The notes below the pieces were generated by a model that saw only the letters and a program-made list of their open reading frames with translations, did no database searches and was not told the DNA's origin. The position numbers were made by a program, and so were the translations under genes. DNA of 34,477 nt from an uncultured Demequina sp. GTDB taxonomy: Bacteria; Actinomycetota; Actinomycetes; Actinomycetales; Demequinaceae. Below, piece by piece: positions 2,047 through 34,477 of the stretch; position 1 is the stretch's first letter, and the number at the start of each line of letters is the position of its first letter. The stretch is from assembly GCF_913055775.1 (NCBI RefSeq), contig NZ_CAJXJX010000010.1:1-34477 (forward strand), given 5' to 3'.

Positions 2047-3450
2047 GTGAGCGGGCGGATGCACTTCATCGGCGTCGGCGGATCCGGCATGTCCGCTGTC
2101 GCGCGGCTCGTGGCCGCCCGCGGCATCGCCGTGACCGGCACCGATCAGCGGGAGTCCGCGTACTTCCTCGCGCTGCGCGACGCAGGCATGGACGTGCGCA
2201 TCGGCCACGACGCCGCGATCGTCGACGGCGCGGACGCGGTGGTGATCTCCACGGCCGTGCGCGCGACCAACCCCGAGCTGGTGCGCGCCCAGGAGCTGGG
2301 GATCCCCGTTCTGCATCGCTCCGAGGCTCTCGTGTACGCACTCGAGAACGACCGGCTCATCGCGGTCGCGGGTTCGCACGGCAAGACGACGACGTCTGCG
2401 ATGGTCGCCCACGTGCTGCACGCGAGCGGCATCGACGCGTCCTTCGCCGTGGGCGCGCGGGTGTTCGGGGTCGAAGGCGCGGTGGCCGGCGGGTACGCGG
2501 GCTCGGCGGGCATCGGCGTCGTGGAGGCCGACGAGTCCGACGGCTCGTTCCTGCGCTACCACCCCGAGGTCGGGATCCTGCTGAACATCGAGCCGGATCA
2601 CCTCGACCACTACGGAGACGTCGACGCGCTCGAGAAGGCGTTCCTCGAGTTTGCCCTCGAGTGCCCGGTGCTCGTCGCGTGCGTCGAGGACGCCACCGTC
2701 GCGCGCATCGCCGAGGAGGCGCGTCGCGCAGGCGTGCGCGTCATCACGTACGGAACGTCCGAGGCGGACGTCATCGTCACCCCGACCGACCTCTCCGTCC
2801 CGAGCGAAATGGGCCCATTTCGCTCGTCTAAGGGCCTAGGCGAGCGCAATGGATCCACTTCGCTCGCGTTGGAGGTGCCGATTCCCGGCGCGCACCAGCG
2901 GCTCAACGCCGCGGCGGCCTGGGCCGCCGCGGTCGCCATGGGTGCGGATCCGGCCGATGCGGCACGCGCCTTCACGACCTTCGCCGGCACGGGCAGAAGG
3001 TACCAGCTGCGCGGCGAGGAGTCGGGCGTGCGGGTCGTGGACGACTACGCGCACCACCCGACGGAGGTGGCGGCCGTCCTCGCGGCGGCGCGTGCGGCGG
3101 GGCAGGAGCACCTCGTGGTGCTGTTCCAGCCCGCCTTGTTCACGCGCACGCAGCTGCACGCCCAGAACTTCGCCGATGCGCTGTCCGTGGAGAACGCGGA
3201 TGTCGTGATCGCGGGCGTCCACGGCGACCGCGAGGACCCCATTCCCGGCGTGACCTCGGACTCGATCCTCGAGCTCATGCACGTGCCCGCCGGGTCCACG
3301 GCCCAGGTGGTCGAGGATCTCGAGCAGGCGGCTGCCGTCGCGGCAGCGCTCGCACGTCCCGGGTCGCAGGTGATGACCGTGGGCTCGGGCACGGTCACGC
3401 TCGCCGCCGACTGGATCCTCGCCGCGCTGCGCGGGGGCGACGATGGCTGA
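2047..3450 (+). CDS. murC: UDP-N-acetylmuramate--L-alanine ligase MurC, carrying an in-frame palindromic insert
   Basis: MurC ligates L-Ala to UDP-MurNAc with ATP, the first step of stem peptide synthesis. The 467-residue protein shows the UDP-binding GVGGSGMS loop (residues 9-16), the ATP-binding GSHGKTTT loop (109-116), the EADESDGSF segment, NIEPDHLDHY, and the C-terminal-domain DDYAHHPTE motif. Start: GTG at 2047, with an alternative ATG at 2059. The odd part is residues 252-273, encoded by a 66-bp double palindrome (2801-2866) whose second copy lies outside genes at 29659. It falls in a loop just before the conserved PGAHQRLNAAAA segment. All catalytic motifs remain and the frame is intact, so the enzyme is inferred to be functional. 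The stop overlaps the ftsQ start. Confidence 0.95.
   Translation: MSGRMHFIGVGGSGMSAVARLVAARGIAVTGTDQRESAYFLALRDAGMDVRIGHDAAIVDGADAVVISTAVRATNPELVRAQELGIPVLHRSEALVYALENDRLIAVAGSHGKTTTSAMVAHVLHASGIDASFAVGARVFGVEGAVAGGYAGSAGIGVVEADESDGSFLRYHPEVGILLNIEPDHLDHYGDVDALEKAFLEFALECPVLVACVEDATVARIAEEARRAGVRVITYGTSEADVIVTPTDLSVPSEMGPFRSSKGLGERNGSTSLALEVPIPGAHQRLNAAAAWAAAVAMGADPADAARAFTTFAGTGRRYQLRGEESGVRVVDDYAHHPTEVAAVLAAARAAGQEHLVVLFQPALFTRTQLHAQNFADALSVENADVVIAGVHGDREDPIPGVTSDSILELMHVPAGSTAQVVEDLEQAAAVAAALARPGSQVMTVGSGTVTLAADWILAALRGGDDG
2801..2866 (+). repeat. Double-palindrome element, copy 1 (in frame inside murC)
   Basis: The left arm, 2801-2826, is a perfect 26-bp palindrome with half-site CGAGCGAAATGGG. 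A 14-bp spacer follows at 2827-2840 (TCTAAGGGCCTAGG). The right arm, 2841-2866, is an imperfect 26-bp palindrome that starts CGAGCGCAATGGA and ends TTCGCTCG. Total length is 66 bp, exactly 22 codons, and the murC frame passes through without a stop. The low-GC halves and the codon choice (AAT, ATG, TTT, CTA) differ from the surrounding gene. The reverse complement aligns end to end with the intergenic copy at 29659-29724, spacer included (one mismatch in the spacer), so the two are copies of one mobile or dispersed element in opposite orientation. Confidence 0.9.
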
Positions 3451-6818: not shown

Positions 6819-6846
6819 TGCCACCGACGTGCGCGACCCGGCCCGC

Positions 6847-6854
6847 GCATCGGC
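6847..6854 (+). repeat. GCATCGGC word, intergenic copy upstream of sepF
   Basis: Intergenic copy in the context CCCGCGCATCGGCCCTC, nearly the same context as the copies at 26689 and 28873. It lies between the pgeF stop and the hairpin at 6867. Confidence 0.6.
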
Positions 6855-6866
6855 CCTCTGCAGTGA

Positions 6867-26649: not shown

Positions 26650-26688
26650 GCCCCTCGCCGGGTGCGGCGAGTGCGCCACCCGACCCCC

Positions 26689-26696
26689 GCATCGGC
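26689..26696 (+). repeat. GCATCGGC word at the -35 position of hisH
   Basis: Intergenic copy in the context CCCGCATCGGCCCTC, ending 17 nt before the TAGACT box of hisH. Confidence 0.6.
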
Positions 26697-26713
26697 CCTC
26701 CTCGCGCCGCCTC

Positions 26714-28785: not shown

Positions 28786-28872
28786 TATCGACCTGGGCGC
28801 AGTGCCGCGAACGCCCCAACACAGCGGTAGCCTGGGAGCCGCACAGGCGCCGCGCCGGGAGACCTCACCCGC

Positions 28873-28880
28873 GCATCGGC
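28873..28880 (+). repeat. GCATCGGC word, intergenic copy upstream of priA
   Basis: Context CCCGCGCATCGGCCCTC, matching the copy before sepF. It ends 23 nt before the priA ATG. Confidence 0.6.
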
Positions 28881-28903
28881 CCTCCCCACACGAAAGCGAG
28901 ACC

Positions 28904-29641
28904 ATGACCGCCACCCGCCGCCTCGAGCTCCTCCCCGCCGTCGACGTCGCCGACGGCCAGGCCGTCCGCCTCACGCAGGGCGAGGCTGGCACCGAGACCG
29001 GCTACGGCGATCCCCTCGCGGCCGCGCAGGACTGGGTGAACGGCGGCGCGGAGTGGATCCACCTGGTGGACCTGGACGCGGCCTTCGGGCGCGGTTCCAA
29101 CGCGGCGCTGCTCGAGCGCGTGGTGAAGTCCGTGGACATCAAGGTGGAGATGAGCGGCGGCATCCGCGACGACGAGTCGCTCGAGGCCGCGCTCGCGACC
29201 GGGTGCGCGCGCGTGAACATCGGCACCGCCGCGCTCGAGAACCCCGAGTGGACCGCTGCCGCGATCGCCAAGCACGGCGACCGTGTGGCCGTGGGCCTCG
29301 ACGTGCGCGGCACCACGCTCGCCGCCCGCGGCTGGACCCAGGATGGCGGCGACCTGTGGGACGTGCTCGCGCGCCTGGACCGCGAGGGCTGCGCCCGCTA
29401 CGTGGTCACGGACGTCAAGAAGGACGGCATGCTGTCCGGCCCTAACACGGGCCTGCTCATGGACGTGTGCGAGGCGACGGACGCGCCGGTCGTGGCGTCC
29501 GGTGGTGTGTCGAGCCTCGAGGACATCGCCGCGATCCGCGCCATCACCGACTTCGGCGTCGAGGGCGCGATCGTGGGCAAGGCGCTCTACAACGGCAACT
29601 TCACGCTGCCGCAGGCGCTCGACGTCGCCGGCCGCCCCTAG
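28904..29641 (+). CDS. priA: Bifunctional HisA/TrpF isomerase PriA
   Basis: PriA is the actinobacterial (beta/alpha)8-barrel that isomerises both ProFAR (histidine pathway) and PRA (tryptophan pathway). The 245-residue protein has [19 protein letters not shown] with the first catalytic Asp (Asp14), [27 protein letters not shown] (Asp133), [15 protein letters not shown] (Asp170, Asp174) and [11 protein letters not shown], with phosphate-binding loops in both halves. No separate trpF is seen nearby. ATG at 28904 has GAAAGCGAG upstream. It diverges from the arsR-type gene, and a 190-nt repeat-bearing spacer follows. Confidence 0.93.
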
Positions 29642-29658
29642 TCGAAGCCTCTGCTACC

Positions 29659-29724
29659 TGAGCGAAGTGGGCCCTTTTCGCTCGCCTAGGCGCTTAGACG
29701 AGCGAATCGGGCCCACTTCGCTCG
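29659..29724 (-). repeat. Double-palindrome element, copy 2 (intergenic, inverted relative to the murC copy)
   Basis: Arms are 29659-29684 (begins TGAGCGAAGTGGG, imperfect) and 29699-29724 (CGAGCGAATCGGG to CCCACTTCGCTCG, near-perfect), with the 14-bp spacer CCTAGGCGCTTAGA at 29685-29698. The spacer differs at one position from the reverse complement of the murC spacer, and the 66-bp length is identical. Placed 18 nt after the priA stop between convergent genes, it could act as a transcription stop. Both strands are open through the element in one frame and encode similar peptides. Confidence 0.9.
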
Positions 29725-29753
29725 GGAAACTGACGGTGACGGCGCGCCGACGG

Positions 29754-29761
29754 GCCGATGC
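29754..29761 (-). repeat. GCATCGGC word, intergenic copy downstream of priA
   Basis: Reads GGCCGATGCG on the plus strand, between the double palindrome and the terminator hairpin. Confidence 0.55.
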
Positions 29762-29782
29762 GCGGGCCCGCCGACGCGCCGC

Positions 29783-29817
29783 GTGGCGCGCCGCCCCGGG
29801 GGGAGGCGGCGCGCCAC
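29783..29817 (-). terminator. Strong hairpin terminator of the galactanase gene
   Basis: Perfect 13-bp arms (GTGGCGCGCCGCC with GGCGGCGCGCCAC) and a 9-nt loop, 14 nt past the galactanase stop. No U-tract follows. It can also stop priA transcripts coming the other way. Confidence 0.65.
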
Positions 29818-29831
29818 CGGGCGTCCACGCC

Positions 29832-32800
29832 TCAGTCGGCGACGGTGCAGGCACCGCCGTTCAGCGTGAACGCCTCGATGGGCAGGGCGCCCGCGTCACT
29901 GTGCCCGATGAACCCGAACGTCACTGACTGTCCGGGCCGGATGACGGAGTTCCAGATGCGGTTGCTGACCGTCACGTCCGCACCGGTTAGGCTCTCGCGT
30001 CCGCTCCACAACTGCCAGATCTCTTCGTCGCCGGCGAACGACCACTCCAGCTCCCAGCCGCGCACCGTCTCATCCCCGGTGTTGGTGATCCACACCTGGG
30101 AGATGAACGCGCCGCGCCACTGACCGTGGACGGTGTAGTCGATCGCGCACACCGGCGGGTTGACGAGCGTGAGCCCGTCAAGCGCGGCGAGCACCTCTGC
30201 CGTCACCGCGTCGACGGTCTCCTGCGTCGACGCCGATCCGGCGAGCACGATTCCGGCCCTCTCGACCGCCAGGTCGAGAGCTGCGAGGGAGTCGTCGGTG
30301 TACAGGGGCCGGTCGACGGCGCCCGCATCGGCCACGGCGGCCTCGAGGGCAGACATGTCCGCGACCGTCTCCTCGACGCTCACCAGCGAGAAGGCGTCGA
30401 CGAAGCCCCAGTCGCCATCATCCGGCGTTCCGCGCGCTCCGACCACCACCTGCGCACCCTCGGGCACCTCGAGGACGAGGGACTGCTCGTCCCACGTCTG
30501 CCAGCCCGTCAGCGTGAGCGGGACCGTGGTCTCGACCCCGTCGATGCTGGCCACCAGCGAGACCGGAGCGGGATCGCCCACGTCGCTGCCGCCCATCGCC
30601 GCACCCGTGAGCAGGTACGAGCCTGCGGGCAGGTCGACCTCCTGGAGCGCGGTGAAGGTGTAGGGCTGTGCCTGCACGTAGAAGCCGAGCGTGAAGTCAC
30701 CCTCGTCACCGTCGGACCCCGCCGGTCCCCGGACCCAGTAACTGCCGTCATCTCCTGGCCACGGGTCGGCCACGAGTGACCAGGGGGCCACATCGGACAC
30801 CCCGTTCTCGAAGCCGGGGTTGGCGATCCAGTTGCGCTCGACGACCGTGATGGTGGCCACGGCCGGCCAGCCGGACGCGGTCACACCGGCGACCTCGTAC
30901 ACGCCGGGACCCGCGACGAGGTCGAGCACATCGCTCCACGTCACGGACTCGGTCGTGGTCGAGTCGTCGTACGCGACCAGGGTCACCTCGGAGGGCAGCG
31001 CGATCGGGTCGCCATCCACGACGGTGAGCTCGACGGGCTGGACGGTGGGATCGGGGATGGTCCCGTCTCCCTCCTCGAGGCCGTCGATCGCCGCGCGCAG
31101 CGCGTCCGTCGCGGCATCCACCGCGGCCTGGCTCGGCGCGGATGCGCCGAGGATGAACGACGCGCGCGCCATGGCCCGGTCGAAGGCCAGCAGCGACACG
31201 GCCGTCCAGCCATCTCGACTGACGCTCTCGCCCTCGGCGTGCACGGCCTCGAGCGCAGCTGTGTCGGCGTCGATCACCGGGACCACCTCGATGAGCTCGA
31301 ACTCATCGATGGTGCCCCAGGCCTCGCTGGTGAGCTCAAACGTCGCGGAGACCGTGACGGTCTGGCCCTCGGCGACCGTCACGACCGGGGTCCGCGGCTG
31401 CTGCCAGCCCTCGTAGCCCGTGAGCACGAACGGCGCCGATGCGCTCGAGATGCCCGAGGACAGCGTGATCGCCGTGGACTCACCGTCGACAGCCGCGCGA
31501 CCCTGGGCCCACGCGGACAGGCGGTAGTCGCCCGCGGGCACGCCGGTGATCGCCTGCGAGATCGTGAACGAGAACTCGTCCCCGGCGAGGTACCAGTGCG
31601 TGGACCGCGATCCCTCGCGCGGGTCGTCAGGAGCACTGATGGTGTAGCCGGTCCCCGTTCCGGTCCACGGCGAGACGCCGTCCTCGAAGCCCGGGTTCAC
31701 CACCCAGTTCTGTCCATCGGTATCCGAGTCGAGGACGGTCACGACCGCCTCGGCATCGAGTCCCTCGGACGTGGTGCCCGCGACCTCGTAGGTGCCAGCG
31801 CCCTGGATCCATGCGGGCTGGGCCGCCCACGTGACGGTCTGCGTCTCGGTGGTGCCGTCGGTATAGGACACCGCGACATCGGTCGGCAGCGCCCAGGTCT
31901 CGCCGTCGACCACGGTGATGGAGGGCGACTCGACGGCATCGACGTCACGCGGACCGATGGTGCCGTAGCGAACGTAGTCCCATACGCGCAGCGACTCGAG
32001 AGGGTAACCGTCGTGGTCGAACATCGCCTGGTTGTCCCAGCCGGAGCCACCGTAGTTGGCCGCCGCATCGGCGCTGTAGTCGGACGCGTGCGAGGACGCC
32101 CAGCCAGAGCCGAACTCCTCCCACAGCAGCTGGTTGCTCGCCAGCTCCTCGGGCGGGCCTACGGGCAGCCAGGCCGGCTCCCAGTAGAAGACTCCCAGCC
32201 CTGCCTCGCCCACGTTCGCGACCGCCTCGATGACGTCGCGGACCGCCAGCGCCTGCCCCTGAACAGACGTCGAGTACTGGTCGTATGCGGTGCGGATGTT
32301 GTTGGGGTAGCCGTCGCCGTCCTCGAGCGTGTACGCCCACGAGGTCTCCGCGACGATGACCTCCTTGCCGTAGTCCGCGGCGACGCCCGCGAGCTGGCTC
32401 GTGAGGTTCTCGAGCGTGCCATGCCAGTACGCGTAGTACGAGGATGCGAAGACGTCGTAGTCGATGGGCTGCACGCCATCGGTCGCCGGGTCGGTGTCGT
32501 AGGTCGCGAGCTGCTCCGCGAGCCAGCCAAAGTTCTGGCGCTCGGGATTGGTGAAGTGGATCGCGATCTTCACGTCCTCACCCAGAGCGTCGCGCACCCC
32601 GCGCGATGCCGCGTCGAACAGCACGCCGGAGTCAGGCCACGACGTCTCTGCGAGCAGCAGGCCGGAGTTCTCGTTGCCGATCTGCACCATGCCGATGTCG
32701 ACGCCCGCATCCGCCATCCCGGTCAGCGTGGCGACGGTGTAGTCGTACATCGCCTCGGCACGCTCCTCGAGCGTGAGGCCCTCCCATGCCTTGGGGAGCG

Positions 32801-33245
32801 GCTGCTGACCGGGGTGGGCCCAGAAGTCCGAGTAGTGGAAGTCGACGAAGACCCGCATGCCTGCGGCGGTGGACCTCAGGCCGATCTCCGTCGCGCGCTC
32901 GGCGTCGACGGTGCCGCCGCCGTAGCCGTTGCCGTCCGCGTCGTAGGGGTCGTTCCAGACGCGGATGCGCGACCAGTTCACGCCCGCCTCGGCCATCACG
33001 TCGAACACGTCGGCCTCGTTGCCGTCGAAGTCCCGGAAGGTGACGCCGGACTCCTCGAGCGACAGGATTGAAGACGCGTCAACGCCGTTCATGAAGTCGT
33101 CCGCAAGCCCCTCCACCTGCGGAACGGTGATGCCGGCTTCGACCGGCTCGTCGGCTGCCACGGCGGCGGAGCTCAGGCCCGCCACCCCCAGCGCACCGAT
33201 GGCTGTCACGGCTGTGACCGCTCCCAGACTGCTTCGCATTCTCAT
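29832..33245 (-). CDS. Secreted multimodular endo-beta-1,4-galactanase (GH53) with CBM61-like and CBM2 domains
   Basis: The enzyme is inferred to cleave beta-1,4-galactan side chains of pectin outside the cell. The 1137-residue order is: signal peptide (1-30, cut after AVA), GH53 catalytic domain (about 36-430) with acid/base Glu192 in IGNENSG and nucleophile Glu300 in VAETSWA, bacterial Ig-like domain (about 436-505), CBM61-like module beginning NWVVNPGFEDGVSPW, FIVAR-like helices, second Ig-like domain, second CBM61-like module (NWIANPGFENG), second FIVAR-like repeat, and a C-terminal CBM2 (1032-1137) with terminal cysteines 1033 and 1133. The start at 33245 is chosen from AAGGAGG 5 nt upstream; ATG at 33269 is an alternative. 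Probably cotranscribed with the next GH53 gene 63 nt upstream. Confidence 0.9.
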   Translation of the reverse strand: MRMRSSLGAVTAVTAIGALGVAGLSSAAVAADEPVEAGITVPQVEGLADDFMNGVDASSILSLEESGVTFRDFDGNEADVFDVMAEAGVNWSRIRVWNDPYDADGNGYGGGTVDAERATEIGLRSTAAGMRVFVDFHYSDFWAHPGQQPLPKAWEGLTLEERAEAMYDYTVATLTGMADAGVDIGMVQIGNENSGLLLAETSWPDSGVLFDAASRGVRDALGEDVKIAIHFTNPERQNFGWLAEQLATYDTDPATDGVQPIDYDVFASSYYAYWHGTLENLTSQLAGVAADYGKEVIVAETSWAYTLEDGDGYPNNIRTAYDQYSTSVQGQALAVRDVIEAVANVGEAGLGVFYWEPAWLPVGPPEELASNQLLWEEFGSGWASSHASDYSADAAANYGGSGWDNQAMFDHDGYPLESLRVWDYVRYGTIGPRDVDAVESPSITVVDGETWALPTDVAVSYTDGTTETQTVTWAAQPAWIQGAGTYEVAGTTSEGLDAEAVVTVLDSDTDGQNWVVNPGFEDGVSPWTGTGTGYTISAPDDPREGSRSTHWYLAGDEFSFTISQAITGVPAGDYRLSAWAQGRAAVDGESTAITLSSGISSASAPFVLTGYEGWQQPRTPVVTVAEGQTVTVSATFELTSEAWGTIDEFELIEVVPVIDADTAALEAVHAEGESVSRDGWTAVSLLAFDRAMARASFILGASAPSQAAVDAATDALRAAIDGLEEGDGTIPDPTVQPVELTVVDGDPIALPSEVTLVAYDDSTTTESVTWSDVLDLVAGPGVYEVAGVTASGWPAVATITVVERNWIANPGFENGVSDVAPWSLVADPWPGDDGSYWVRGPAGSDGDEGDFTLGFYVQAQPYTFTALQEVDLPAGSYLLTGAAMGGSDVGDPAPVSLVASIDGVETTVPLTLTGWQTWDEQSLVLEVPEGAQVVVGARGTPDDGDWGFVDAFSLVSVEETVADMSALEAAVADAGAVDRPLYTDDSLAALDLAVERAGIVLAGSASTQETVDAVTAEVLAALDGLTLVNPPVCAIDYTVHGQWRGAFISQVWITNTGDETVRGWELEWSFAGDEEIWQLWSGRESLTGADVTVSNRIWNSVIRPGQSVTFGFIGHSDAGALPIEAFTLNGGACTVAD

Positions 33246-33256
33246 GCGATCCTCCT
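33246..33256 (-). promoter_or_regulatory. Strong ribosome-binding site of the galactanase gene
   Basis: On the minus strand AAGGAGG is followed by 5 nt and then ATG at 33245. It decides this start over the ATG 24 nt upstream. Confidence 0.7.
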
Positions 33257-33308
33257 TGTTGATCACCATCGATCTCCCCCACGCCGCCGGATGCGGCGCA
33301 CGGTCCTG

Positions 33309-34475
<1,167 letters not shown>

Positions 34476-34477
34476 GT

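Follow-up and report, generated by a model that had tools for sequence, protein, structure and literature searches.

We describe a REPIN-like hairpin family in Demequina, its anatomy and position bias, a palindrome-framed nuclease gene that co-occurs with it, and a shared site at which its sequence has changed between species. Together these suggest that the nuclease spreads and rewrites the hairpins, and we think it likely that they form a REPIN/RAYT-like system in which a Vsr-type protein, a putative nuclease, replaces the tyrosine transposase. The 64-nt repeat studied here, in a 34,477-nt stretch of DNA analyzed as a whole (the window) from a genome of 2.71 Mb in 208 contigs (G000), is one member of a short, non-autonomous hairpin population (A-B-A, 64 nt, extended in 40-nt steps) placed mostly at gene 3' ends.

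Repeat anatomy and genomic context

The repeat proper spans positions 29660-29723 (64 nt), one base less at each end than the 29659-29724 of an earlier note on this DNA. Two 24-nt palindromes, A (GAGCGAARTGGGCCCAYTTCGCTC), flank a 16-nt palindrome-like spacer, B (GCCTAGGCGCTTAGAC): unit 1 lies at 29660-29683 (one mismatch to the consensus), the spacer at 29684-29699 and unit 2 at 29700-29723, which is predicted to pair with unit 1. The predicted fold of this array (copy 2), as RNA or as DNA, is one long hairpin far more stable than those of shuffled sequences (z = -9.2 and -8.4, respectively, with 0 of 200 shuffles folding as well in each case). A second A-B-A array in the window (copy 1, 2802-2865) lies in frame inside murC (UDP-N-acetylmuramate--L-alanine ligase; 2047-3450, plus strand; TIGR01082, 369 bits, cut-off 335), with A units at 2802-2825 and 2842-2865 (the latter with three mismatches) around a spacer at 2826-2841; units and spacers of both copies are assigned no strand. 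The two copies are 88% identical in inverted and 81% in direct orientation, and the label 'inverted' for copy 2 means little because the unit almost equals its own reverse complement. Half-motif matches with up to three mismatches number 12 in the window vs 4.0 expected, and the repeat structure of copy 2 is far beyond chance.

As the earlier note had stated, copy 2 lies between convergent genes. These are hisA-trpF (priA; 28904-29641, plus strand; TIGR01919, 379 bits, cut-off 306), whose 3' end is 18 nt from the array, and a minus-strand ORF of 1145 aa (29832-33269) named galactanase-like by eye, with no family match carrying that name. A scan of the copy 2 region (29400-30100) for intrinsic terminators (a GC stem followed by a T run) found none, no Rfam family matched the window at gathering scores, and the exact 24-mer occurred in 0 stretches of the named genome and viral collections, from which the genome of the window may itself be left out. 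Within 260 nt 3' of hisA, none of 12 other species has an array of this kind, and a different gene follows; two of the 12 have a weak hairpin there (score 13 to 13.5, vs 22.5 in G000). Among the 13 species compared, the copy 2 site is private.

A second repeated motif, CGCATCGGCCCTC / GGGCCGATGCG, occurs in the window at 6842-6858, 26684-26700, 28868-28884 and 29750-29765, and was also seen next to many arrays and in the central part of the longer elements of a related genome (G016, below). Direct repeats of 73-85% identity at 32211-32434 and 34248-34477 suggest two neighbouring paralogous genes.

A two-way peptide from palindrome symmetry

Translation confirmed that copy 2 yields nearly the same stop-free peptide on both strands (frame +1, SEVGPFRSPRRLDERIGPTSL; frame -1, SEVGPIRSSKRLGERKGPTSL) and that the murC copy (2802-2865 of the ORF 2047-3450) yields a similar one (SEMGPFRSSKGLGERNGSTSL), all three fitting the pattern GPxRSxxxLxERxGxTSL. 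The earlier note had offered two origins for this. A by-product of near-perfect symmetry proved right, because in such a palindrome translation of either strand gives almost identical peptides when the frames match. The other, selection for protein compatibility, found no support and was rejected on array lengths, open frames and placement relative to genes. Among 30 arrays with at least two recognized units, 25 are 64 nt long, four 104 nt and one 144 nt, leaving remainders of 1, 2 and 0, respectively, on division by three; their open frames average 2.67 of six, fewer than in dinucleotide shuffles (3.36), and each copy in the window has only two of six (frames +1 and -1 in copy 2); placement inside genes is rare. 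Both strands are open in 28 of the 30 arrays, compared to 26.4 expected. Being open in both directions is therefore ordinary for DNA of this kind, and the two-way peptide in frame is incidental. Copies of variable length confined to intergenic DNA were to have made the murC case an accident: lengths do vary and most copies are intergenic, but a simple accident does not describe murC, where an in-frame array is kept at the same place in six species.

Hairpin arrays favour gene 3' ends and convergent gaps

Genome-wide, G000 contains 138 half-motif matches with up to two mismatches, vs 6 for a reversed control pattern. There are at least 50 sites among the places listed by this and one further search, and the total may exceed this; each site holds one to four units, and neighbouring recognized units are 40 nt apart throughout. 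A further unit, C (GAGCGAGAATCGACCGCCAG and relatives), terminates many sites, the commonest layouts being A-A (16 of 50) and C-A-C (10 of 50).

Placed with a simple codon-bias gene caller, 20 of these 50 sites are convergent, 18 tandem and five divergent, one is wholly inside a gene (murC), two overlap doubtful gene calls and four are at contig ends. Convergent gaps are enriched, with 20 of 43 classifiable sites vs 19 of 129 array-free gene pairs (p = 5e-5) or vs 3 of 50 such pairs with gaps of at least 60 nt (p = 6e-6), and 16 of the 18 tandem sites are nearer the stop codon (p = 0.0013). The G000 arrays are a REPIN-like hairpin family of gene 3' ends and convergent gaps. By eye, their flanks are mostly C/T-rich before the array and G/A-rich after it.

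In 17 clean two-unit arrays of G000, pairing between the A units reaches 0.877 vs 0.820 when halves are swapped, with 0 of 500 as high. Long-stem pairing in the pooled set (56 pairs, including single-unit sites) is no better than in swapped pairs (0.699 vs 0.692), and neither spacer B nor the 12-nt flanks pair in a site-specific way. GTAG stands at the unit end in at most 5 of 86 A units at any one offset, and CGTC occupies a minority of unit ends (right-end CGTC in 12 of 86 and left-end GACG in 19 of 86 A units, or 31 of 172 ends). A RAYT was considered as the mover in G000 and rejected, the Y1 transposase (RAYT, Y1_Tnp, PF01797) being absent from all 25 Demequina genomes searched (G000 to G024).

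The murC insert and the pheA-linked nuclease

Five of 30 aligned murC orthologues (G000, G016, G031, G033 and G015) carry an in-frame 24-16-24 array at the same place with differing sequences, and the other 25 lack the insert; 11 further genomes, among them G027, which is split, were judged by match length only. D. litorisediminis is a sixth species with an array at this place. Long-stem pairing within a species is 20-28 of 32 (mean 25.3), compared to a mean of 19.3 (range 13-27) when halves are swapped between species. On the tree the insert requires at least two changes, which would be two gains at one site or one gain with losses.

A gene for an AbiEi/DUF559 protein of ~305 aa with a Vsr/homing-endonuclease-like domain (the nuclease) adjoins pheA in eight species. 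Palindromes frame it on both sides in seven of them: G016, G033, G015, G031, G036, G008 and, judged by eye, Demequina sp. B12. In the seven species other than G000 its neighbours are pheA on one side and a diacylglycerol-kinase-like gene on the other. Only the pheA side of the locus is readable in G000; a framing A unit stands on that side of the nuclease, and the contig-end side is without an outer A unit. Relative to pheA, the G015 nuclease (L231 / L259) has the opposite orientation to that in the other species, as though the segment within its framing repeats had inverted. The murC array of G031 is a hybrid, one unit resembling that genome's own nuclease ends and the other the palindrome type of G000.

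The close nuclease clade (54-59% identity to P0002, the protein of G016 described below, plus the genome of P0002 itself) occurs in five of 41 genomes, and these are the same five that carry the murC insert; the earlier note had not anticipated a link to a nuclease. In D. litorisediminis a nuclease relative (54%) was found first, in a scan of named genomes, and the murC insert was looked up afterwards and was present; the nuclease reading frame breaks early in that assembly. G036 and G008 have more distant relatives of the nuclease (48% and 44%, respectively), framing palindromes and dispersed families, and despite these are without the murC insert.

Position and persistence bear on the reading that the arrays are bidirectional terminators or 3'-end RNA hairpins under selection on expression, which the nuclease merely borrows. 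The earlier note had raised termination in both directions for copy 2, and copy 2, whose place fits, may have such a role; across the family, convergent and 3'-end placement, a very stable hairpin and the C/T-to-G/A polarity of most flanks agree with it. However, our scan, whose scope was U-tract terminators, found none at copy 2, one copy sits inside murC, where the array is kept in six species, and terminator function predicts neither a differing family in each species nor a framed nuclease gene. We consider this reading of the arrays improbable.

Species-specific families in other Demequina genomes

All four relatives searched (G016, G015, G036 and G008) have other families, of the same plan and with differing sequences. 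The murC insert of G016 gave 61 BLAST matches at about 20 places in its own genome and that of G015 gave 50, the places being fewer than the matches because both strands of each palindrome are counted. Among the matches listed for the G036 nuclease end (40 candidates scored per genome), 52 fell in G036 and 56 in G008, with none in G034, G014 and G021 and one weak match in G031. In genomes without the nuclease clade, queries from G016, G015 and G036 found nothing or weak matches, each query finding its own family only; one place in G024 matched the G016 query (E = 0.003). G031 and G033, which have the clade, gave no match to the G016 query, a palindrome other than their own.

The 19 core places in G016 comprise five short hairpins, 11 longer elements (about 145-260 nt), two single-ended elements and one that bears a gene and encodes P0002, an AbiEi/DUF559-type protein. 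The longer elements have conserved inner arms like GAGGAAG...CTTCCTC and variable middles. Elements of this size, such as the one at 2003-2200 of L179, could be deletion derivatives of the gene-bearing element. At five of the 19 sites, murC among them, the genes on either side are orthologous to those around a G000 site, where by rough reckoning chance would give one or two, and the nuclease locus and two more sites match a G000 site on one side. With these sites shared and the copy 2 site private, both new gain and rewriting at old sites have therefore probably taken place. One G016 copy (L190) lies inside a called gene, the G000 orthologue of which ends just before an array.

Predicted architecture of the nuclease

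We modelled the D. activiva nuclease with AlphaFold2 (pLDDT 92). Within Foldseek's list, residues 199-305 of the model match NGO0050 (Z 12.2), I-Bth0305I (Z 12.0) and Vsr (Z 10.0), and residues 8-196 match an AbiEi antitoxin (Z 10.9, rmsd 7.0 A). PADLOC AbiEi models match the N-terminal half as well (best E 4e-7 to 3e-10 in three proteins), and a search of solved structures by sequence with the nuclease profile returned nothing at E up to 1. Residues E204, D236, E247, D249, H254 and D257 are invariant in 12 sequences and, in our own reading, would be the EDxHD residues. The model thus predicts an AbiEi-like N-terminus joined to a Vsr/EDxHD-like PD-(D/E)XK C-terminus, with putative nuclease action.

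AbiEi antitoxins bind inverted repeats, and a protein whose N-terminal half resembles them could have the palindromes as scattered binding sites. These would make up a regulon or a self-mark of the AbiEi-like, DNA-binding nuclease and would have spread by ordinary mutation and selection without any copying. We hold this to be very unlikely. The 40-nt period and similar spacers of multi-unit arrays suggest copying rather than evolution in place, as do the conserved inner arms of the ~145-260-nt G016 relatives, and the sites are at 3' ends, not promoters.

Framing repeats around related nuclease genes

Framing was defined as a best inverted repeat between 450-nt flanks scoring over 18, control genes (n = 173) and random windows (n = 300) both having a maximum of 18.0. 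By this measure 28 of 52 unique Demequina loci of the AbiEi/DUF559 kind are framed vs 0 of 173 control genes, and 24 have no framing repeat above threshold. For other Actinobacteriota, 22 of 29 loci were scored, of which 15 are full length (the short-protein match L306 not counted); five of these 15 are framed and ten have no framing repeat above threshold. The scoring of loci left out L233 (contig end) and the truncated or startless L220, L228, L299, L300, L301, L311, L314, L318 and L322. The framing sequences differ from gene to gene, and their dispersal was assessed for the pheA-linked group alone. The idea that another, unlinked transposase moves the family, with the nuclease a passenger caught in one copy, would suit the frequency of related DUF559-type genes without framing repeats (24 of 52) and is nonetheless highly doubtful, since framing of the pheA-linked gene is two-sided in seven of eight species, the dispersed families found agree with the framing ends or the murC insert of their own species, distant members are framed by different repeats of their own, and a search for the Y1 family alone found no such transposase in G000 or 24 other Demequina genomes.

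Discussion

In the REPIN/RAYT-like system that we favour, the hairpins, which resemble the framing ends of the pheA-linked nuclease gene, probably derive from them. The nuclease most likely recognizes the palindrome of its own species and most likely cuts or nicks copies or targets, after which repair would copy the element to new places or rewrite old copies. Were enzyme and palindrome to drift together, old sites such as murC would be rewritten in each lineage's own sequence; homing-type conversion would explain both the species-specific sequences and the rewriting at shared sites. Binding, cutting, copying and conversion by the nuclease are our inference. The framed nuclease also bears on how a cell-wall gene can keep a hairpin in frame while the sequence of that hairpin is rewritten. 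Template-switch correction can also maintain perfect palindromes and needs no dedicated enzyme.

For the wider class we lean slightly towards the view that AbiEi/DUF559-type Vsr-fold nucleases are dedicated makers and rewriters of palindromic repeats, an Actinobacteriota-wide counterpart of REPIN/RAYT, with enzyme and palindrome evolving jointly and old copies at fixed sites being converted to the new sequence. A nuclease gene framed by the same palindromes as the family would point to a function for a large, uncharacterised family of proteins, and its enzyme-palindrome pairs form a natural series in which specificity and concerted evolution could be studied. Among the matches listed in open-licence papers, no title joined DUF559 or Vsr-like nucleases to palindromic repeats, and 'DUF559' together with 'inverted repeat' was unmatched in such papers. 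No maker has been known for REP-like repeats that have no tyrosine transposase, to go by the available part of PMC3733652 on CGTC repeats, and the framed nuclease is a testable candidate.

Several known systems share parts of this plan. REPIN/RAYT systems are described, in the available parts of PMC3116915, PMC8049555 and PMC3733652, as pairs of REPs that fold into hairpins and are accompanied by a REP-associated tyrosine transposase. In the Demequina arrays, likewise, two inverted palindromic units with a spacer between them form a single long hairpin; there are many extragenic copies, placed outside genes and at 3' ends, with compensatory changes, and the repeat frames a gene that stays at one place. 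They differ in that the framed gene is for a Vsr/DUF559-type nuclease, no Y1/HUH transposase being found in G000, and in the GTAG tag, which no offset shows in more than 5 of 86 units. CGTC REPs and Rickettsia palindromic elements (RPE) resemble them as palindromes of which some lie in frame inside genes. Two Xanthomonas species carry different REPs at about the same recB site, and CGTC repeats are apparently without a dedicated transposase, according to the available part of PMC3733652; in contrast, a dedicated nuclease is proposed in Demequina, and CGTC stands at only 31 of 172 unit ends.

Relative to AbiEi antitoxins, the likeness is confined to the N-terminal half (PADLOC models; structure Z 10.9), and the Demequina protein has in addition a C-terminal nuclease domain. 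With Vsr and the EDxHD homing endonucleases such as I-Bth0305I it shares, by prediction, the same C-terminal fold, and the fold match comes with conserved acidic and His residues. Unlike those endonucleases, the Demequina nuclease was not seen in an intron or intein; its gene is framed by palindromes, and many short copies exist without the gene. I-Bth0305I dimerizes on a target of nearly 60 bp, according to the available part of a review (PMC3943268), a size close to that of the 64-nt Demequina array.
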